A DNA stretch of 24,880 bases, taken from IMG/VR virus record IMGVR_UViG_3300005590_000072, positions 1 to 24,880 of that record, one strand, 5' to 3'. Below, piece by piece: positions 4,046 through 24,880 of the stretch (its first letter is position 1; every line of letters begins with the position of its first letter). The notes under the pieces are model-generated. The model was not told where the DNA came from, made no database searches, and was given only the letters and a program-made list of their open reading frames with translations. This stretch comes from a virus. A program made the position numbers and the translations under genes.

Positions 4046-5318
4046 TTTCAATATCTCCACTAATGATAGCTGCGCGCAAATCGGGAAATTTTACGGCCCG
4101 GCCTTTTGACTTACCCCATTTGGATATTTTCTTCGCATAATCTGGGTCGTCTGCATCGTCCGCCAAAATGATTTTGCAGCGGGCGCCGAAAACATCAAAG
4201 AACCGCATCCGATCCCCTAATTGGCGAGGCGGTCCATCGTTCAGCCCTAGGGCAAAGGATTCCGGCAGGCTGTCAGCATCCTCCGAAATGTCATACCATC
4301 CGTCTTTGATGTCGCACCGGACAATAGCTATATTTGTTACCCCTGCAGATGCCGAGAGGGCTTTCAGCCGTCCGGCAAAAACCGGGTCATGCTCAATGCA
4401 AAACACCGTCTCTTTGGTTGCCGCCGCCATAAGAACGGTCGTCAGACCCGAGCCCGCCTCGATGATCGGGCCGTCTGCCTGCCTAGCGATGCCGACCGAT
4501 AGCATTAAGACCTCTTCGTCGGCACCCCACGGGTTATCGACAAACTCCATTGCTTCTGTATAAAGGCCAGGCTCTTCCGTTCCAGATCGTATGCAGTCCG
4601 CAACATGCCTAAGCGTTTGACCGGACGCCCGACGAAGATTGGCGGCCAAGCTGTCCACTAGAACCGTTTTGCATACGTGTCCAAGGCGCATTTCCGTAGC
4701 GGCGTATATTTTCCCGCCCGTTGCCCGCCATTTGTTGCACATATTCAAGTCACCGCCCCAGCGCGTCCCATCTTCAAGGGTGCGCTCAAATATAAGCGGT
4801 ACGCCGTCGCGGCGGTCTTTGGCACTATCAAACGTCCGGGACTGCTCCGCGAGGGTTTCTATAACAACTCGGCGAAGGCGCATAAACCCGGTAGGCAACC
4901 CCTCAACCTCAAGAAGCCCGTCCTTGGGTTTTGCCCCCGGTAAAAAGCGATAGGGCATGCCGCCCTTGGCCCGAACGTCCTCGCGGCGGTAGCAATAAAC
5001 GCCGCCGACCAAATCAAGGTCGTATTGGCACAGCGCAACCAGATCGCCATCATCCCACGAAACATCGGCGTCGAGGAAAACGAGGTCCGTGCAATCGGAT
5101 TGCAGAAATTCATGGACAACGCTATTCCTGGCGTCGTCAACGTGGCAATTGCCGGAAAGCAAGACATAGGCAGATTGTATCCCTGCCGCCGTCATTGCCT
5201 CCCGGCTGCTTGCTATTGAGTAAGTGTAGCTTGCGTCCGGGCAATCGTACGCCGTAGTTGCAAGCATCACCTTTTGGCCTGTGGCGGGAGGGCCGCCATC
5301 ATAATGAAAGACTGACAA
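4005..5318 (-). CDS. Glycosyltransferase-methyltransferase fusion
   Basis: A 437-residue protein with two apparent enzyme halves. Residues 15 to about 225 look like a GT-A glycosyltransferase: KVMLATTAYDCPDASYTYS at the start, the DxD-type motif FLDADVSW at 82-88, then LVGGVYCYRR and a terminal LGHVCKTV. Residues about 255-415 look like a class I SAM methyltransferase: motif I IIEAGSGLTTVL at 285-296, an acidic CIEHD after the second strand, and GLNDGPPR near motif IV. It starts with TTG behind GGAGG at good spacing, 12 bases after the small capsid-associated gene; the first in-frame ATG is codon 18 and has no good ribosome site. Its place in the head operon suggests modification of virion or surface glycans. 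Substrates are unknown. Confidence 0.75.
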   Translation of the reverse strand: MSVFHYDGGPPATGQKVMLATTAYDCPDASYTYSIASSREAMTAAGIQSAYVLLSGNCHVDDARNSVVHEFLQSDCTDLVFLDADVSWDDGDLVALCQYDLDLVGGVYCYRREDVRAKGGMPYRFLPGAKPKDGLLEVEGLPTGFMRLRRVVIETLAEQSRTFDSAKDRRDGVPLIFERTLEDGTRWGGDLNMCNKWRATGGKIYAATEMRLGHVCKTVLVDSLAANLRRASGQTLRHVADCIRSGTEEPGLYTEAMEFVDNPWGADEEVLMLSVGIARQADGPIIEAGSGLTTVLMAAATKETVFCIEHDPVFAGRLKALSASAGVTNIAIVRCDIKDGWYDISEDADSLPESFALGLNDGPPRQLGDRMRFFDVFGARCKIILADDADDPDYAKKISKWGKSKGRAVKFPDLRAAIISGDIENATQEKAKQTDRA

Positions 5319-5330
5319 CGGCCCCCTCCA

Positions 5331-5546
5331 CTAGCCCCCGGTAGTCGTGAGCCCAAGCGAAGCAAGGGCCGCGATTACGCGGTTGATCTTGAGTTCATTA
5401 AGCGCGGTCGTCGCGGTCGCCGTGGCAACGGCGGTCATGGCGACCTGCACTACAGGAGTCGCCCCGAAGAAACCAATTTTCTCCGTAGCGGACGACCCGA
5501 GGACGGTCCCGTCAGTGTTCCCGTCTCCGATGTATTCTACAGTCAT
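5331..5546 (-). CDS. Small capsid-associated protein (head fibre/decoration-like)
   Basis: A 71-residue protein starting MTVEYIGDGNTDGTVLGSSA, followed by EKIGFFGATPVVQ and a helical C-terminus. The DGT-x-LG ... EKIGFFG-x-TPVVQ pattern recurs in small proteins next to major capsid genes of many phages and resembles the N-terminal anchor of head-fibre proteins, so a role on the capsid surface is plausible. The ATG at 5546 is preferred over upstream possibilities because GGAG lies at good spacing (GGAGTTATACT). It lies 23 bases after the coat gene and 12 before the fusion gene. The function is inferred from context. Confidence 0.7.
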   Translation of the reverse strand: MTVEYIGDGNTDGTVLGSSATEKIGFFGATPVVQVAMTAVATATATTALNELKINRVIAALASLGLTTTGG

Positions 5547-5569
5547 AGTATAACTCCTTTTCTTTGTGC

Positions 5570-6802
5570 CTATGCGGTGCCGCTGATGCGATGGGCCAAA
5601 CGCGAGTCGATGGTTTTCACGCCATAGAGAACGTCCAGCCGCCATTTCGAGATGTCGTTCGTGCCGTCATAGACGGGAATCACGCGAACATGCGTTCCCT
5701 TGTAAGACTGGCGCGAAACGTCAACGGCTCCCGGAGGGGCCACAAGCGGGACAGAAACCAAAGCAAAGGCTTTCGGGCAGAAAACCATGTTTTGCCGGTA
5801 TCCGGTCGAAGCCGTTCCGACAACGGTAATCGCCTTACCATCCCCGATGGTCGCGGAGATGTTCTGGTGGGCACCCGTCAGAATAGCCGCCGGGGACATA
5901 GTAAGCGTAATGTCGCCCGTGGTATCGCTGATGGTGGTCACCACCCGGAATTGCTTCAAGAAAGGAAGCGTTGCCTTGGTAACAGGGTTAACGGCATAAA
6001 CGTCGGCAATCGTAAACACGTCACCAGCGTTAAGCGTTGTCGCACCGCTAGACCAACCGTCCGTAATAAGCGTCTGGGTGTCGGTGTCCTTCGATGCCGC
6101 GTACGTCGTCTCTTGGGCCGCGCCGTTCGTTAACGGCGTGCCTGCGTGGGCTCCGACCGTATGAGTCGGAACATTCTGAGACATGTACGTGTCAACGCCG
6201 CCAATTTCGCCGAGCGAACCCTTGCGATAGGCAGAGCCAACAAGGCGGTCGTTCAGCAAGGCAGTCTGTGCCCCAACAAGCCCCCAATGGTCAGCCGGGG
6301 AAAGAACGGAACAGCGCGAATCCTGCGGGTTTGCATATTCGTCCATACGCTCCGGACCCTTGGCAAAGTCCTGGTTGCTGTTGATGGTTTGACCGGGCGT
6401 TCCCACCCAAGACGGGACGTTCTTGTATTCCGCCATAAGCGAGCTGTCGATATCGTTCGCAAGCTGAATCATGGCAGGCTTAATGACGCGCTCGTTCAAT
6501 TCCTTGATCGAAAGCGTCAATTCCTGGGATGTAAACTCAAAGTCGATACCCTTACGCTGATCGACATCAAGGGTAAACTTGCCTTCCGTGGTATCCTGGA
6601 CATTCATCACGGCGCCGGTTCGGACCGTGAAGTCCATCGGGCGCTTGACGGAAATCGAGGAACCAACCTCGTAACCGTTGATATTTTTAGAAAATTCCTC
6701 TTCGTAACCGCGAAAAACCTTTTTCGCCATCACAAGCTCGTTGTCAAGCTGCATCACCGCCGTTTTGGCGATAATAGATGCAGTTAAGGTCGTGTTAGCC
6801 AT
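5570..6802 (-). CDS. Major capsid protein, P22 coat (gp5) family
   Basis: A 410-residue protein, close to the 430 residues of P22 coat. The start MANTTLTASIIAKTAVMQL, then NELVMAKKVFRGYEEEF, and the segment GSSISVKRPMDFTVRTGA are characteristic of the P22 coat protein family, which builds the HK97-like shell with an added domain. The motifs DFEFTSQELTLSIKEL and SCSV-like SRCSVLSPADHWGLVG are also typical. It follows the scaffold gene by 39 bases, as expected for coexpression, with a GGA-type ribosome site (ATGGAAACAAAACA) before the ATG. Assignment is strong because terminase, portal, scaffold, coat, gp4 and gp10 appear in the P22 order. Confidence 0.92.
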   Translation of the reverse strand: MANTTLTASIIAKTAVMQLDNELVMAKKVFRGYEEEFSKNINGYEVGSSISVKRPMDFTVRTGAVMNVQDTTEGKFTLDVDQRKGIDFEFTSQELTLSIKELNERVIKPAMIQLANDIDSSLMAEYKNVPSWVGTPGQTINSNQDFAKGPERMDEYANPQDSRCSVLSPADHWGLVGAQTALLNDRLVGSAYRKGSLGEIGGVDTYMSQNVPTHTVGAHAGTPLTNGAAQETTYAASKDTDTQTLITDGWSSGATTLNAGDVFTIADVYAVNPVTKATLPFLKQFRVVTTISDTTGDITLTMSPAAILTGAHQNISATIGDGKAITVVGTASTGYRQNMVFCPKAFALVSVPLVAPPGAVDVSRQSYKGTHVRVIPVYDGTNDISKWRLDVLYGVKTIDSRLAHRISGTA

Positions 6803-6841
6803 TGTTTTGTTTCCATTCTGTTTGGCCTCTTGGCCGTGCTA

Positions 6842-7771
6842 TTACGATGCCAGGCCCAATTCCTTACGCAATTCTGCCGTGCTCCACTTGTCCGGGTCTG
6901 CGGAACGTCCGCTTGCCCCGCCCTTGTTCTTCATGGCTTTCACTGGCTTGGATTTGGCTGGCGCTGCTGTAGGCGTCTTAGCCTTGGCCTGCATCCGGCG
7001 ATAAAGCATTGACTCATAGGCCATGCGGGCAACGGGTGGGTTCAAGGCCCACTGGTCCGCGTCTGCTTGGCTTATGCCAAACTCCTTGACAACGTAAGAC
7101 ACCAATTCCGGCGCCTTTTCTGTCGAGAAGTTCTTGATTTGCTTGTCCAACAAGGCTCGGCCTTCCTCGGCGCGCCGGGCAAGCTCTGCTTGCTGCGCGG
7201 CACGGGTGGCCTTTTCTTGCTGGTCAACCTCATTAACAATGCCTTGGAAATCTGCGAGCTTTTGCGCTAAGGCGTCAGAAACACGGCGCCCCTGATCAGG
7301 GTCCGCCTCCCATAACGCGTTTAGATCAACCGCTTTAAGCTGCTCAATCTCCGCACGTAATTGCAGGCCCTGAGAATACTTCTCAAGGGTTTCGCCGTTC
7401 AAAGCTGAAATCTTTGCTACGGCCTGCTCTTGTTCGGATAGTGTCTTTTCCCTCTCTGCATGGGCCTGCGACTTGCGGGTGTAGTCCGACCAGATTCCCT
7501 TGGAAAACTCGTCGATCTTGTCCGCAAGTTCGGGCGTAATGTCAGAAACCGGAACCTCGATCTTATTGCCGCCGAAATCAAATTCACGCATTTCAACGGC
7601 TTCTTCTTCCCCATCTTCGCCTTCTTCGTCAGCATCTTCGGATGCCTCTTTCTGTTCAGTTGGCTCCCGATCTTCCTCGGAAGCCTGCTCAACTTCTTCC
7701 GTGTCTGGGATGGTTTTTACCGCATCCGCTTCGTCTGCAACTGCGTCAATGACGCCGGTTGGCTCTTCCAT
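6842..7771 (-). CDS. Capsid scaffolding protein
   Basis: A 309-residue, highly charged protein. Residues 1-60 are strongly acidic (EEVEQASEEDREPTEQKEA and more Glu runs). The next part holds the short conserved-looking FDFGGNKIEVPVSDITPEL. Residues about 95-215 are a long predicted coiled coil (EREKTLSEQEQAVAKI, QQEKATRAAQQAELARRAEE). The C-terminus is Lys-rich with KSKPVKAMKNKGG, like the coat-binding helix-turn-helix of scaffolds. The position directly before the coat gene fits a scaffold, which directs shell assembly and leaves the head during packaging. AGGAG lies nine bases before the ATG. Confidence 0.82.
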   Translation of the reverse strand: MEEPTGVIDAVADEADAVKTIPDTEEVEQASEEDREPTEQKEASEDADEEGEDGEEEAVEMREFDFGGNKIEVPVSDITPELADKIDEFSKGIWSDYTRKSQAHAEREKTLSEQEQAVAKISALNGETLEKYSQGLQLRAEIEQLKAVDLNALWEADPDQGRRVSDALAQKLADFQGIVNEVDQQEKATRAAQQAELARRAEEGRALLDKQIKNFSTEKAPELVSYVVKEFGISQADADQWALNPPVARMAYESMLYRRMQAKAKTPTAAPAKSKPVKAMKNKGGASGRSADPDKWSTAELRKELGLAS

Positions 7772-16098: not shown

Positions 16099-16638
16099 TC
16101 AGTTTGAAATTCTGGCCTTGTAATTCGTCGGCCTGCCCGGTTTTGGGGCGCGGGCATCAACAAGATGCTGCGGCTCGATCCCTGCTATCTCCGCATATCG
16201 GCCAAGGGCGTCCTTTAAATGGCGCGTAACTGCCTTTTTCCCCCTCGGAAGGCCGTATAATCTCTCAATGTGCGAAACGCACCGATTATCCACCACAACA
16301 TCTATAACCAGTTGCAGGCGCGTAACCTGCCGTTTGGCGGGGAGAAGCCCTCGCATTTCATTCGCCCAAGGCAGGTAATTATGCCGGTAAATCCGCCGCT
16401 CGGACGGGCAGAGGGATTCTGTCGGGAAACTACCTGAATACCGCTTTGGGGCATCGTAGTCACGGGGCTCGTACTTCATCCCGGCCCGAAATACCGCGCT
16501 ACTAACCGCGTGGAAGATTTCCTCGATTTCCTTGGCCGCTTCAAGGTGGATTCGCTCCAAGTGGCCGCGTTGGAACAGAAAAACCAGCTCGTCCCGGCGC
16601 AATTTTCGGATGGTTTCGGGGGTTGCCTCTCGGTTCAT
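16099..16638 (-). CDS. Unknown phage protein with a possible C-terminal HTH
   Basis: A 179-residue protein. Residues 1-55 are helical and charged (ATPETIRKLRRDELVFLFQR), the middle has RYSGSFPTESLCPSERRIY, and the C-terminal part HIERLYGLPRGKKAVTRHLK could be a helix-turn-helix. It overlaps the end of the DUF1376 gene by four bases (ATGA), so it is translated after it. As the last gene of the replication operon it may be a late regulator, but I do not recognise the family. Confidence 0.6.
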   Translation of the reverse strand: MNREATPETIRKLRRDELVFLFQRGHLERIHLEAAKEIEEIFHAVSSAVFRAGMKYEPRDYDAPKRYSGSFPTESLCPSERRIYRHNYLPWANEMRGLLPAKRQVTRLQLVIDVVVDNRCVSHIERLYGLPRGKKAVTRHLKDALGRYAEIAGIEPQHLVDARAPKPGRPTNYKARISN

Positions 16639-17753
16639 TGGCCTGACCTCGCTAAATCCGCCTGCGGGGCCGATGTGGTGCCATTGTTTGTTTTGGGGCT
16701 ACCACCACCCGTTTTTTTCAGAGTCGGGCACCCCATGGCCTTCTCTGCCCGTTTAACGGCTATTTCAAACCAAGATGGCGCCCCTGCTTTTTCCATAAGC
16801 ATATCCTGAAGCGTTTTCGTGTAACGTTGCTGCGCGGTATCGCGAATGAACGCGGTTGGCGCTGTGGCGTGGAATGTCTTTGCCACATCGTCGCCAGCAA
16901 CCGACAAAAGCATCAATTTCCCAAGCCACGATTCAAATTCCCCCGGCCCGATTTTGGTGGCCAAATCCTCCATGACCGCCGTCCAAGACGCCGCGTCCCT
17001 CTCGCCAACCCATTCGGAAATAAGGATTTTCGGTTTCCAATCGGGGGGGAATTCCTTCGCTTTTGGGGCGTCAGGGTCGGGATCGTCAAGCCATCGCTCG
17101 CCGTTAAGCCACGTTGCAGGCTGCGCCCAAGCGGCGTAGCTCGGTTTGTTTTCGCGGTATTTTTGGACGCCAGCCAGCAAAACCTCGCCGCTGGCCTTCG
17201 TTCGGGCGGTTCGGTAGGCCCGCAAAGCCTGCCCCCTGCCGACATGGGTCGGGTAAGCCGAATACCAAATTTCAAATTCTTCCTCCAAACTTGGGGTTTT
17301 CTTTTTTGTATTTTTTTCTTTCTTTCTAGTATCTGGTATCTGGTTTCTAGTAGGCATGTTTTTGGTAGTGCCTGTTTCATGCGGCGGCATATTCGTGACG
17401 TTGTTTTTATTAGACTTTTTATCATCTTTCTGCCACCTACTACGCGCGTTAGATGCTTGCTTTGTGTTGAGTTCGTGCTGAGTTTCGATCACTTTTTTGG
17501 CTTTTTTATTCACCAACATACCGTCCTCACGGGTCAATTTGTTGTCTGAGACAAGCTGGTCGATGGCCTTTTTACACGCCGTCAAACGCATATTGCATCG
17601 CCTTGATATCCGAACGGGATCATCTGGGATTGGTCCGCCCTCGTCATACATGCGCATTAGCACAACCGTATAAACTGCTATCTCGTGTGGTCCTAATTCA
17701 GACACACCGTTTAGAAAATCGCTTGGGAAGCACTTAAACCACACGTTGCTCAT
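16635..17753 (-). CDS. DUF1376 replication protein with DnaA domain I-like C-terminus
   Basis: A 372-residue protein. Residues 1-95 look like DUF1376 (FKCFPSDFLNGVSELGPHEI, then AVYTVVLMRMYDEGGPI), a replication-initiation module in phages. Residues 95-150 are a Lys/Asn/Thr-rich linker. Residues 155-225 resemble a common phage replication block (FEIWYSAYPTHVGRGQALRA, ending PATWLNGERWLDD). Residues about 257-318 look like DnaA domain I (WTAVMEDLATKIGPGEFESW, then APTAFIRDTAQQRYTKTLQ), which in DnaA contacts DnaB and other partners. The ATG at 17753 overlaps the DnaA-IV gene's stop (ATGA). It probably loads helicase at the phage origin; the fusion is inferred from motif similarity. Confidence 0.72.
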   Translation of the reverse strand: MSNVWFKCFPSDFLNGVSELGPHEIAVYTVVLMRMYDEGGPIPDDPVRISRRCNMRLTACKKAIDQLVSDNKLTREDGMLVNKKAKKVIETQHELNTKQASNARSRWQKDDKKSNKNNVTNMPPHETGTTKNMPTRNQIPDTRKKEKNTKKKTPSLEEEFEIWYSAYPTHVGRGQALRAYRTARTKASGEVLLAGVQKYRENKPSYAAWAQPATWLNGERWLDDPDPDAPKAKEFPPDWKPKILISEWVGERDAASWTAVMEDLATKIGPGEFESWLGKLMLLSVAGDDVAKTFHATAPTAFIRDTAQQRYTKTLQDMLMEKAGAPSWFEIAVKRAEKAMGCPTLKKTGGGSPKTNNGTTSAPQADLARSGQ

Positions 17754-18127
17754 TGCATCCACCCCCCAAGAATATCTGAGTTGCAAGCTGACCAGCATAC
17801 CGTTATATATGATGGCTGCGAAAAATCGTTCAGAGGCGGGGGCGTTTGCCGAAGCCGAAGGCGCGCCGCTTCCGTCAAATATCTAAATTCCCTGTCTTTT
17901 TCTATCAAAATCTCCGCGCGGCTTATTCCAGCCATGACGGTCGTATGATCGCGTCCGCCAAACTCTCTGCCAATTACCGGGTAGGATTGTGGCGTTAAAT
18001 CGCGGCAAAGCAAATAGGCGGCCTGCCTGGGTCTGGCGCAGCGCCTTTGGCGGCGCTCGGATAACAATTCCATCATTGAAATGCCGAAGCTGCGGCAGAC
18101 GGCCTCTTGAATTGATCGTATTTTCAC
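17750..18127 (-). CDS. Stand-alone DnaA domain IV-like protein
   Basis: A 125-residue protein. Residues 5-75 match DnaA domain IV: IQEAVCRSFGISMMELLSER, RPRQAAYLLCRDLTPQSYPV, and the DnaA signature GGRDHTTVMAGI at 57-68, whose loop and helices contact DnaA boxes. No AAA+ ATPase domain is present. The C-terminal part is less conserved. It begins with GTG overlapping the methyltransferase stop (GTGA), with GGAGG six bases upstream. It is followed directly by a protein carrying a DnaA domain I-like segment, so the pair may bind a phage origin and recruit DnaB. A regulatory role at DnaA boxes is an alternative. Confidence 0.85.
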   Translation of the reverse strand: MKIRSIQEAVCRSFGISMMELLSERRQRRCARPRQAAYLLCRDLTPQSYPVIGREFGGRDHTTVMAGISRAEILIEKDREFRYLTEAARLRLRQTPPPLNDFSQPSYITVCWSACNSDILGGWMQ

Positions 18128-18558
18128 GACACCCCTCCGTCTAAGTCAAAATCTTCTTGGTTTCCAACAGCATCCCCGCCTTGGGGCACAAACAAATCCC
18201 CCTGCTTGTAGGCGTCATATATACGCTTGCAGGCAATATCGAAATATTTTGGCTCCAATTCAATTCCGATAAACTTCCTGCCCATCTTCGCGCACGCAAC
18301 CCCCGTTGTGCCGCTGCCCATGAACGGGTCTATGATTGTGTGCCCCGGCGAGCTGTGCAGCATAATAAAATGCTCACACAAGGCTACCGGCTTCTCGTTC
18401 GGGTGCAGGCGTTCACGCGGGGGCATCATAGAAAAGATATTTCTGGCAGCCATGTTGTTGTCGTGCCAAAGCAGCTTCCCTCCGTCGCGGTGGGCAACCA
18501 TAATCATCTCATGCTGACGTCTATACCGCCACCCCAACCCTGGATTTTTTTGTCCCAA
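18124..18558 (-). CDS. DNA methyltransferase, C-terminal half (frameshifted)
   Basis: This frame carries the SAM-binding part: WRYRRQHEMIMVAHRDGGKL, the target-region RLHPNEKPVALCEHFI and the motif DPFMGSGTTGVACAKMGRKF. The shown start is arbitrary, because the true beginning is the upstream half in another frame. The two frames overlap at an A7 run, and a shift of minus one there joins VIWDKK to NPGLGWRYRR, a continuation expected in homologs. It ends overlapping the DnaA-IV gene. It is either expressed by frameshifting or is a broken gene. Confidence 0.7.
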   Translation of the reverse strand: MGQKNPGLGWRYRRQHEMIMVAHRDGGKLLWHDNNMAARNIFSMMPPRERLHPNEKPVALCEHFIMLHSSPGHTIIDPFMGSGTTGVACAKMGRKFIGIELEPKYFDIACKRIYDAYKQGDLFVPQGGDAVGNQEDFDLDGGVS

Positions 18559-18929
18559 ATCACCGAATGGAAAAAGGCTAGGCCAGCGCTATCCATGCGG
18601 TCGGCGACCCAAGCAAATGTTGGCCTCGGCCCCCCGCCGCAGCAGCAGCAGCAGCAGCTATCACGCCGCAAGATTCTGGCCGCCTGCAATAGCATCCCAT
18701 CCAGCACCGCGCGAAATGAATCTTGGTCGTCGTTGGCAATCGGCTTATCCACAATGCCGCGCGCAGCGTTGAGGTGAGCGTTCAAATCGCCGTCGTGGTT
18801 TCCGTGTCCATATGGGGGGTCCGTCCAAAACATTTCGGCGCTTTCCGCCGGGGTATCCTGGAGAACAGACAGACAATCCCCAAGATAGAGCGTACAATCA
18901 CCAATTACCTCTTTGCGCCTATGGGTCAT
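18504..18929 (-). CDS. DNA methyltransferase, N-terminal half with DPPY motif
   Basis: A 141-residue frame with GDCLSVLQDTPAE, the catalytic motif TDPPYG (D-P-P-Y at 37-40) and an odd run of six Cys (92-97), encoded by a GCA/TGC-type triplet repeat, then GGGPRPTFAWVADRM. The order DPPY before FxGxG is that of beta-class amino (N4-cytosine or N6-adenine) methyltransferases. The real protein continues in the minus-one frame after residue 128. CGGAG lies five bases before the ATG. The target site cannot be predicted. Phage methyltransferases usually protect DNA from host restriction. Confidence 0.72.
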   Translation of the reverse strand: MTHRRKEVIGDCTLYLGDCLSVLQDTPAESAEMFWTDPPYGHGNHDGDLNAHLNAARGIVDKPIANDDQDSFRAVLDGMLLQAARILRRDSCCCCCCGGGPRPTFAWVADRMDSAGLAFFHSVIWDKKIQGWGGGIDVSMR

Positions 18930-18947: not shown

Positions 18948-19100
18948 TTAGTCCGCACTTTGGCGGTAAAGCTGCCGCAATTCAACCGTCTTGCCCGCGT
19001 CTTTCGCCGCCTTGATACCGGCTTTCATGCCTTGGGAAATTCCCCGGTCTGTGTAAACCACCACCAAATCACACACTTGCTCGCATATCGCTCCGATCCG
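18948..19100 (-). pseudogene. C-terminal remnant of a DUF7768-like protein
   Basis: In a frame different from the DnaB remnant, the codons read ICEQVCDLVVVYTDRGIS, then QGMKAGIKAAKDAGKTVE and LRQLYRQSAD before TAA. This matches the C-terminal part of DUF7768 / deoxyribosyltransferase-like phage proteins, where a V-F/Y-x-D-R-I-S-x-G-M-x-A-x-I block is typical. The N-terminal part is absent; the sequence upstream belongs to the DnaB remnant. The left edge is at the last readable codon before the junction. Confidence 0.5.
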
Positions 19101-19438
19101 AAAAGCTGTAGATAATCAACGACGACCAGGCCAAGCCCATGGCTGCGTTTGATACGGCGCAGCTCCATTCGCAGATGGTCCACCGTGCCGCCGATCTGTT
19201 CCAGCGACCCGTCCTGCTCGAAGCAGGTTTTCAGCAGAATCGGATCGGCCGCGCCGTTCGCTTTCAGCACTTTCTCGATCTGGGTGAAAATCCGGGCATG
19301 CGCCGGCGAGTAAAAATCCCCGGCCGAGACGATCCCGGCAATTTTGTCATAGGCCGCGTTCTCCAGAAGCACGGCACCCAACAGGGCCTGTTCGACCTCC
19401 AAATTCTTCGGCGGCTGGCGTTCGGCGAGATCGGTCAT
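19025..19438 (-). pseudogene. dnaB: DnaB helicase with a large internal deletion and lost C-terminus
   Basis: A 137-codon frame. Residues 1-90 match the DnaB N-terminal domain (PPKNLEVEQALLGAVLLENA, DFYSPAHARIFTQIEKV, DGSLEQIGGTV). Then it jumps to RIKRSHGLGLVVVDYLQLF, the Walker B region that in intact DnaB lies about 200 residues later. The Walker A and much of the ATPase core are missing, and after DYLQL the match ends. The ATG has GGAG at good spacing, so a short protein could still be made, but it cannot be a helicase. It is more GC-rich than its neighbours by eye. Most likely a deletion remnant. Confidence 0.75.
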
Positions 19439-22411: not shown

Positions 22412-22500
22412 AACAGGTGCTTTCCTGCGCGCTATATCTAGCCGCGATCCTATTAACCGCTTTTATGTTTGGGCTCTACTTTATTGAGGCAATCCGATGA
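22408..22500 (+). CDS. Very small single-span membrane protein, 30 residues
   Basis: A 30-residue protein: MKQVLSCALYLAAILLTAFM, FGLYFIEAIR. Almost the whole length is one membrane helix. GGAGG lies seven bases before the ATG. It overlaps its neighbours by four bases on both sides. It is next to the 35-residue membrane protein, so the two may act together. Confidence 0.6.
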   Translation: MKQVLSCALYLAAILLTAFMFGLYFIEAIR

Positions 22501-23135
22501 AATTCCCAATTAAAAACCGCTTTACCGGAAATCCAATTACCGAGGTTGAATTGGATGCCAGTTATGAAAGCGCGGCGTACTCTGTTCAACTCGGTGCGGC
22601 GGTGAAAATTGCTGCCGCCGAAAATACAAACCTCGCATGTGCGGACCTCGCCGGGGTGGACCTCTCTGGTGCGGACCTAGCCCGTGCGTACCTCGTCTAT
22701 GCGGACCTCGTCCGTGCGAATCTCTCCGGTGCGAATCTCGTCCGTGCGAATCTATCCTGTGCGGACCTCGCCGGGGTGGACCTCTCTGGTGCGCTCCTCG
22801 TCGATGCGGACCTCGCCGGTGCGAATCTCTCCGGTGCGAATCTCGTCCGTGCGAATCTCTCCGGTGCGAATCTCACTCGTGTGAATCTCGCCGTGGTGGA
22901 CCTAGGCAAGAAAGGCATCCTCCAAATAAATGGCCTGCGGTGGCCCATCCTTATCACGCCGGAATACATGAGGATCGGCTGCGAAAAACATTTGCACGGC
23001 GACTGGCGTTCTTTTGATGACCGGCGTATTGCGGAAATGGACGGAAAGGAAGCGCTCAAGTTCTGGCGTGATAACAAAGACTGGTTGCTTGAGCGGTGTG
23101 AATGGGCGGCTGGTTTTAAGAAAGATGGAGTATAA
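22497..23135 (+). CDS. Pentapeptide-repeat protein
   Basis: A 212-residue protein. After a 45-residue start (MKFPIKNRFTGNPITEVELD) come about 19 pentapeptide units of the A(D/N)LXX type (for example ADLAG VDLSG ADLAR; ANLSG ANLVR ANLSG), roughly residues 43-138, which fold as a right-handed quadrilateral beta-helix. The C-terminal 70 residues are different (ILQINGLRWPILITPEYMRI, RIAEMDGKEALKFW). Some pentapeptide proteins mimic DNA and protect gyrase; others have unknown roles. The gene is translation-coupled (ATGA). Confidence 0.85.
   Translation: MKFPIKNRFTGNPITEVELDASYESAAYSVQLGAAVKIAAAENTNLACADLAGVDLSGADLARAYLVYADLVRANLSGANLVRANLSCADLAGVDLSGALLVDADLAGANLSGANLVRANLSGANLTRVNLAVVDLGKKGILQINGLRWPILITPEYMRIGCEKHLHGDWRSFDDRRIAEMDGKEALKFWRDNKDWLLERCEWAAGFKKDGV
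22638..22858 (+). repeat. DNA-level tandem repeats in the pentapeptide gene
   Basis: A 36-base unit recurs exactly at 22638-22673 and 22758-22793 (120 bases apart), and a 40-base unit at 22714-22753 and 22819-22858 (105 bases apart). Both spacings are multiples of 15 bases, the size of one pentapeptide codon block, so repeats stay in frame. Confidence 0.8.
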
Positions 23136-24734: not shown

Positions 24735-24880
24735 ATGTCTGGATCGGTTAACAAGGTCACTCTTATCGGCAATCTGGGCCGCGACCCGGAAGTCCGCAAC
24801 ACCCAGGATGGCACGGCGATTGTCCATCTTTCCGTCGCCACCTCCGAAAACTGGAAGGACAAGACGACCGGCGAGCGCCG
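24735..24880 (+). CDS. ssb: Single-stranded DNA-binding protein, N-terminal part
   Basis: The first 48 codons are in the window: [40 protein letters not shown] and KDKTTGER. The N-x-V-x-L-I-G-N-L-G-x-D-P-E-V-R block and the S-V-A-T-S-E-x-W-K-D-K block are typical of bacterial-type SSB OB folds. AGGAG lies six bases before the ATG. It continues past the window edge. It follows YqaJ and ERF, so it protects the single strands they make. Confidence 0.92.

Follow-up and report, generated by a model that had tools for sequence, protein, structure and literature searches.

Can a phage use the two ends of the bacterial initiator DnaA, domains I and IV, as separate proteins and dispense with the ATP-dependent middle? 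The question is raised by two overlapping genes of interest, both on the minus strand of a 24,880-base IMG/VR virus record, the whole of which is called the window here. The original prediction held that the first gene encodes DnaA domain IV and the second a DUF1376 replication protein with a domain I-like segment, and that the pair could be a distributed initiator that binds a DnaA-box origin and brings in the host helicase. The features that bear on this prediction are the following.

16635..17753, minus strand: replisome organizer gene, 372 aa, ATG at 17753 (DUF1376 and DnaA_N by Pfam; PHROG)
16794..16988, minus strand: DnaA domain I, organizer residues 256-320 (Pfam DnaA_N, phmmer, fold, residue mapping)
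17088..17294, minus strand: conserved middle domain, organizer residues 154-222 (tblastn)
17300..17499, no strand: AT-rich stretch (GC 0.385) inside the organizer gene, the sole clear AT dip in the replication block (composition)
17487..17741, minus strand: DUF1376 winged-helix domain, organizer residues 5-89 (Pfam E 3.1e-11; model)
17750..17753, minus strand: ATGA overlap of 4 bases between the domain IV gene stop and the organizer start (sequence; also in L105-L108)
17750..18127, minus strand: solitary DnaA domain IV gene, 125 aa, GTG start (Bac_DnaA_C, TIGR00362, phmmer)
17921..18118, minus strand: domain IV proper (gapless alignment to E. coli DnaA domain IV)
18745..18753, plus strand: exact TTATNCACA DnaA box (TTATCCACA), the sole one in the window, inside the methyltransferase gene
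19025..19438, minus strand: dnaB remnant, DnaB N-terminal domain plus Walker-B fragment (Pfam DnaB 1e-21; DnaB_C only over positions 112-143 of 255)

The replication block and its surroundings

The four-base overlap of the two genes was correctly read in the original prediction. An alternative open reading frame for the organizer has 387 aa, with 15 extra residues upstream, such that the Pfam hit at 271-335 of 387 corresponds to 256-320 of 372. The gene downstream of the organizer, running from 16638 to 16099, again shares a 4-base overlap with it, and these successive overlaps give the block the appearance of an operon. The AT-rich stretch within the organizer gene is a candidate unwinding region on the basis of its composition; a repeat search of the same gene revealed no iterons beyond short chance pairs.

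An overlapping contig of 36,048 bases shows 100% identity with the window across 24,734 bases, and for this reason it was rejected as independent support and the two are treated as one observation. The final 146 bases of the window (24735-24880) find no match in this otherwise identical contig, probably reflecting an assembly branch, and comparison of the two also revealed a gene region with internal repeats of ~120 bases at 22497-23135 on the plus strand. A set of 46 proteins from the window and the 36-kb contig was scanned; it includes a P22-type portal, coat, terminase, ERF, YqaJ exonuclease, holin and peptidase, and 25 of 75 PHROG families are among the matches listed for this set. Pfam detected no primase or DNA polymerase among these 46 proteins, and its helicase matches were confined to the dnaB fragment. 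The ATP-dependent middle of DnaA is missing, as had been proposed: none of the 46 proteins contains an AAA+ DnaA domain, and no match to Bac_DnaA (AAA+ domain III), as expected of a DnaA initiator, was found in the window at E 1.

The dnaB remnant lacks a complete DnaB motor domain by Pfam, and its truncation could reflect decay, deletion or an assembly join. At 18948-19076 on the minus strand it continues into what is left of a DUF7768 gene. Of 15 related records tested, 1 has a complete DnaB motor domain. Given the fragmentary dnaB of the window and the near lack of full motors in these records, these phages probably rely on the DnaB of their host, which is, we infer, probably an alphaproteobacterium. 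At 18124-18929 on the minus strand, a DNA methyltransferase is split across two overlapping frames, and a -1 shift within a seven-A run of the coding strand would connect them; a real frameshift, programmed slippage and sequencing error are the alternatives.

The truncated dnaB, the methyltransferase split over two frames and the finding that the sole second copy is the identical contig are features that a degenerate prophage or a chimeric assembly might show, in which case the two genes of interest would be unrelated relics brought together by chance. This explanation appears very unlikely, as both genes are intact with their 4-base overlap, the contact residues of domain IV are kept (see next section), and the pair is conserved in the closest organizer relatives (L105-L108; 44% identity), in which the domain IV gene lies immediately upstream with the identical overlap.

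DnaA domain IV and a replisome organizer that ends in domain I

The assignment of the 125-residue protein to DnaA domain IV proved sound. Bac_DnaA_C matches residues 4-69 with an E value of 5.7e-25 and 87.6 bits, against a curated cut-off of 31.5, and Pfam finds no other domain in the protein. Its best match in a phmmer comparison with the PDB is E. coli domain IV, 1j1v (8.5e-16), with a gapless alignment, and it covers positions 347-430 of the 437 in TIGR00362, the model of full DnaA. The 1J1V structure is the DnaA-box complex, in which R399, R407, Q408, D433, H434, T435 and T436 of E. coli DnaA are contact residues. All seven are identical in the phage protein, where they correspond to R26, R34, Q35, D60, H61, T62 and T63. 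We also compared 20 solitary domain IV proteins that were gathered via their DUF1376 neighbor and not selected on the contact motif. The contact positions are among the most conserved in this set (n=20), with R407 and H434 kept in 85%, R399, R432 and T436 in 75%, and T435 and D433 in 70%. Since these positions are conserved in an unselected set, DNA recognition seems to be under selection, and the comparison argues strongly that the solitary domain IV protein would bind DnaA boxes. In E. coli DnaA, specific binding to dsDNA is due to domain IV alone (PMC5835720).

The organizer contains, in order, the DUF1376 winged helix, a linker, the middle domain, DnaA domain I and a low-confidence tail. 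The model of the DUF1376 domain has pLDDT values of 86-93 over most of its length, and its structural matches are winged helices, including the DnaD N-domain (2vn2). Among PHROG families, the best match to the protein is primosomal protein family 9327 (6.3e-48), followed by family 270 of replication initiation proteins (5.9e-23). Thus, the second gene is, as anticipated, a DUF1376 replication protein, and it shows the N-terminal winged helix and the location in a phage replication block of DUF1376 phage replisome organizers. The middle domain (~154-222), to which the tblastn matches in many phages are confined, recurs in replication proteins from phages of Gordonia, Arthrobacter and alphaproteobacteria and is also present in L214, L220 and L242.

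C-terminal to the middle domain, Pfam identifies DnaA_N with an E value of 2.6e-7 and 30.7 bits, above the curated cut-off of 24.6. The organizer covers positions 1-80 of the 437 in TIGR00362, so that, together with the small protein, the pair spans both ends of DnaA. In a single-sequence phmmer comparison with the PDB, the organizer C terminus matches B. subtilis DnaA domain I better than anything else, first as 4tps (E 4.2e-4) and then as 8btg (5.3e-3). AlphaFold2 was run on residues 236-372 using an alignment of six rows that included DnaA copies from phage contigs. With this DnaA-containing alignment, pLDDT was about 82-91 across the domain, and the model has the expected helix-helix-strand-strand-helix-strand order (H16-33, H35-42, E46-53, E56-63, H66-88, E92-98). 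Its best structural match is 4tps_B (Z 13.4, rmsd 1.5, 82 residues aligned), and DnaA domain I of 2wp0_C scores Z 10.5, compared with ~8.5 for unrelated KH-like structures. DciA was considered as the identity of the C-terminal domain and rejected, as this related fold (VIA-align Z ~7.4) ranks below DnaA. In the full-length organizer model domain I was not reproduced, with pLDDT mostly below 55 there, and this model was not used for domain I owing to its low-confidence C terminus. The profile match at 256-320 coincides almost exactly with residues 257-318, where the resemblance to domain I had originally been noticed by eye, and profile, single-sequence and fold comparisons all confirm that assignment. 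Neither outcome named in advance as refuting it, a missing DnaA_N match or a different fold there, was observed.

Residue mapping aligns W257, E272, W276 and F302 of the organizer with W6, E21, W25 and F46 of E. coli DnaA, while the equivalent of W50 is replaced by T306. In E. coli DnaA, Glu21 and Phe46 bind DnaB and Trp6 is a dimerization residue (PMC5448010). Phe46 is kept in nearly all of the mobile-element domain I copies compared. Glu21 is variable among alphaproteobacterial DnaA proteins, and thus the presence of E272 is a weak argument for DnaB binding. No viral model in a fold search of BFVD matched at E 0.001, but two of the ranked rows hint that databases may already contain this architecture: one from Brevibacillus phage SecTim467, titled "Putative replicon initiation protein", and one from an uncultured phage, titled "DnaA N-terminal domain containing protein".

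Distribution of the two DnaA pieces

A scan of viral contigs with domain IV returned at least 483 relatives, from which 80 loci were kept, and in most of these domain IV is a solitary protein of 113-300 aa. Among 75 DUF1376 organizer loci, 24 have a solitary domain IV gene within about 4 kb, on the same strand in 23 of the 24. As in the window, phiGT1_62, Rhizobium phage RHph_N28_2 and Bradyrhizobium prophages encode a small Bac_DnaA_C-only protein in a replication block, and phage solitary domain IV genes often adjoin a DUF1376 gene. Unlike the window, these genomes contain no DnaA domain I by Pfam, carriers of full-length DnaA aside. Indeed, across the records of the 80 loci and eight named phages, the only DnaA_N matches were in the full-length DnaA proteins of L031, L081, L083 and L090 and in a second L090 protein. 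Other organizer records likewise gave no DnaA_N match (0 of 72, in sets of 50 and 22).

Domain I, for its part, was found in 275 of 289 alphaproteobacterial genomes, and in 14 genomes there are multiple copies that a split contig does not explain. In most of the extra copies examined, domain I forms the extreme C terminus of a Rep-like protein; these copies include a protein that is DUF1376-like by alignment (L210), two with the middle domain (L214 and L220) and one with an HTH (L215). No solitary domain IV was present near the extra domain I copies in any of the 20 loci fetched. One Rep-like protein of 548 aa, at L217:1456-3102, ends in two tandem copies of DnaA domain I.

Related proteins have been described on plasmids. 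Rhodobacterales have DnaA-like plasmid replicases (Petersen et al. 2011, as cited in PMC9025767). To this group, we infer, belongs the "DnaA N-terminal domain-containing protein" of pDY25-E, the gene of which adjoins ParB and ATPase genes. Similar to the organizer, the pDY25-E protein combines an HTH N terminus (HTH_Crp_2, E 1.4e-4, below the cut-off) with a C-terminal DnaA_N at 165-222 of 240 and has no AAA+ domain; in contrast to the organizer, it is on a plasmid and has no DUF1376, phage middle domain or solitary domain IV neighbor. Rickettsiales plasmids and RAGE elements also encode DnaA-like or DnaA_N-domain proteins (PMC1800911, PMC10732058), and in Rickettsia the DnaA-like proteins have been proposed as starters of plasmid replication (PMC1800911). 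Rep-like proteins of the Rickettsiales type resemble the organizer in their C-terminal DnaA_N, as do several of the copies among L203-L217, some of which may be rickettsial, and differ from it in having another N-terminal domain and, in the loci checked, in lacking a domain IV gene close by.

Scans with single proteins and with two rows retrieved as relatives only the identical contig, L090 or partial-protein matches, and a tblastn search of the organizer against plasmids and phages gave matches over DUF1376 or the middle domain and none over domain I. A domain I organizer was found in four viral lineages: the window, L242/L243, L240/L241 and L090. In L090 (IMGVR 3300035704_000384, 4837-7729), as in the window, a DnaA gene lies directly upstream of an organizer that ends in domain I; here, however, DnaA is full-length with its AAA+ middle, and the organizer has no DUF1376 match. 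L242/L243 (IMGVR 3300030906_000324 and 3300029951_000475) share with the window an organizer containing the middle domain and DnaA_N (31.5 bits), with a solitary domain IV one gene downstream whose score of 29.2 bits falls slightly short of the 31.5 cut-off. They differ from the window in their reversed gene order, a GcrA gene between the two and the lack of the DUF1376 winged helix. The block at L242:5610-7104, with its domain I organizer, GcrA and solitary domain IV, brings together domains of two host cell-cycle regulators.

Thus, the two DnaA pieces were found together in two lineages, the window and L242/L243. Each piece is known alone in phages or plasmids, and their pairing appears to be rare. 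Our literature search, with most subscription journals outside its coverage, found no report describing solitary domain IV proteins of phages or a combination of DUF1376 with DnaA_N; as far as found, the combination is undescribed in the literature searched, with components of known kinds. The domains I and IV of the pair are homologous to those of cellular DnaA, but here they reside in two proteins, domain III is absent, and domain I is C-terminal rather than N-terminal.

DnaA boxes and the roles of the pair

The proposal of a phage origin made of DnaA boxes fared poorly. The window holds one exact TTATNCACA box and two matches to the looser TTWTNCACA, compared with 1.2 expected. The 97 loci with solitary domain IV (0.90 Mb) contain 7 boxes against 8.6 expected, and no locus of the 97 has a cluster of three or more. 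In the positive control, alphaproteobacterial dnaA loci, 2 boxes were found against 1.4 expected and 10 looser motifs against 4.7, which makes the control a weak one. A DnaA-box phage origin is therefore unsupported, since the boxes are neither enriched nor clustered, though the weak control means that this is not an exclusion. As to the distributed initiator of the original prediction, recruitment of host helicase is plausible, with F302 and E272 kept and only a dnaB fragment in the phage, and it is the step to a single distributed initiator working at a DnaA-box origin that lacks support.

These data bear on how the pair might function. In a true two-protein initiator, domain IV on DnaA boxes of the phage origin would bind the organizer, which would supply domain I and thereby DnaB, the pair replacing DnaA. 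The adjacency and overlap of the genes, the retention of gene order and overlap in L105-L108, the DNA-contact residues kept in domain IV, and L242/L243 as a divergent second lineage with both pieces and only a GcrA gene between them are all consistent with such an arrangement. Yet the phages show no enrichment or clusters of boxes, and relatives of the L105-L108 type have the gene pair without domain I, which indicates that domain IV does not depend on domain I. Domain I organizers also occur without solitary domain IV, and the co-occurrence in 2 of 4 viral lineages fits the base rate of 24 of 75, making the pairing indistinguishable from independent acquisition; two common modules may simply have come together by chance. 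Mainly because the cases are few and this base rate is about one third, we do not take it as established that a single DnaA has been divided between two proteins. We regard the two-protein initiator as unlikely, and equally so the broader claim that a phage-split DnaA, acting as an ATP-independent two-protein initiator, was assembled independently at least twice (in the window and in L242/L243).

A second possibility, doubtful but somewhat less so, is that domain IV serves in host take-over by occupying the boxes of host oriC or of DnaA-controlled promoters, restraining host initiation and freeing DnaB. This would account for the conservation of all E. coli box contacts in phages without box clusters, and the specific dsDNA binding by isolated E. 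coli domain IV noted above is in keeping with it. However, the chromosomal dnaA loci that served as positive control for the box counts gave only a weak signal.

The reading we consider reasonably probable gives the two proteins separate tasks: the organizer would be an origin binder that docks host DnaB via domain I, and domain IV a separate, accessory DnaA-box binder. The recurrence of Rep proteins with C-terminal domain I in plasmids and prophages counts in favor of this role for the organizer. Its N-terminal winged helix would bind the phage origin, and its C-terminal domain I, judging from homology and the residues kept, would dock host DnaB as in cellular DnaA, such that the helicase could be loaded without an ATP-dependent AAA+ DnaA filament of the phage. 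The solitary domain IV protein would most likely be an accessory that acts either on a few phage sites or on DnaA boxes of the host, whether these lie in oriC or in promoters under DnaA control.

These findings suggest that DnaA domain I is a detachable helicase-docking module that has been grafted onto the C terminus of initiators unrelated to one another, and that a free-standing gene for DnaA domain IV circulates among phages. The separability of helicase recruitment and DnaA-box recognition from the AAA+ filament may thus be testable in a small natural system.
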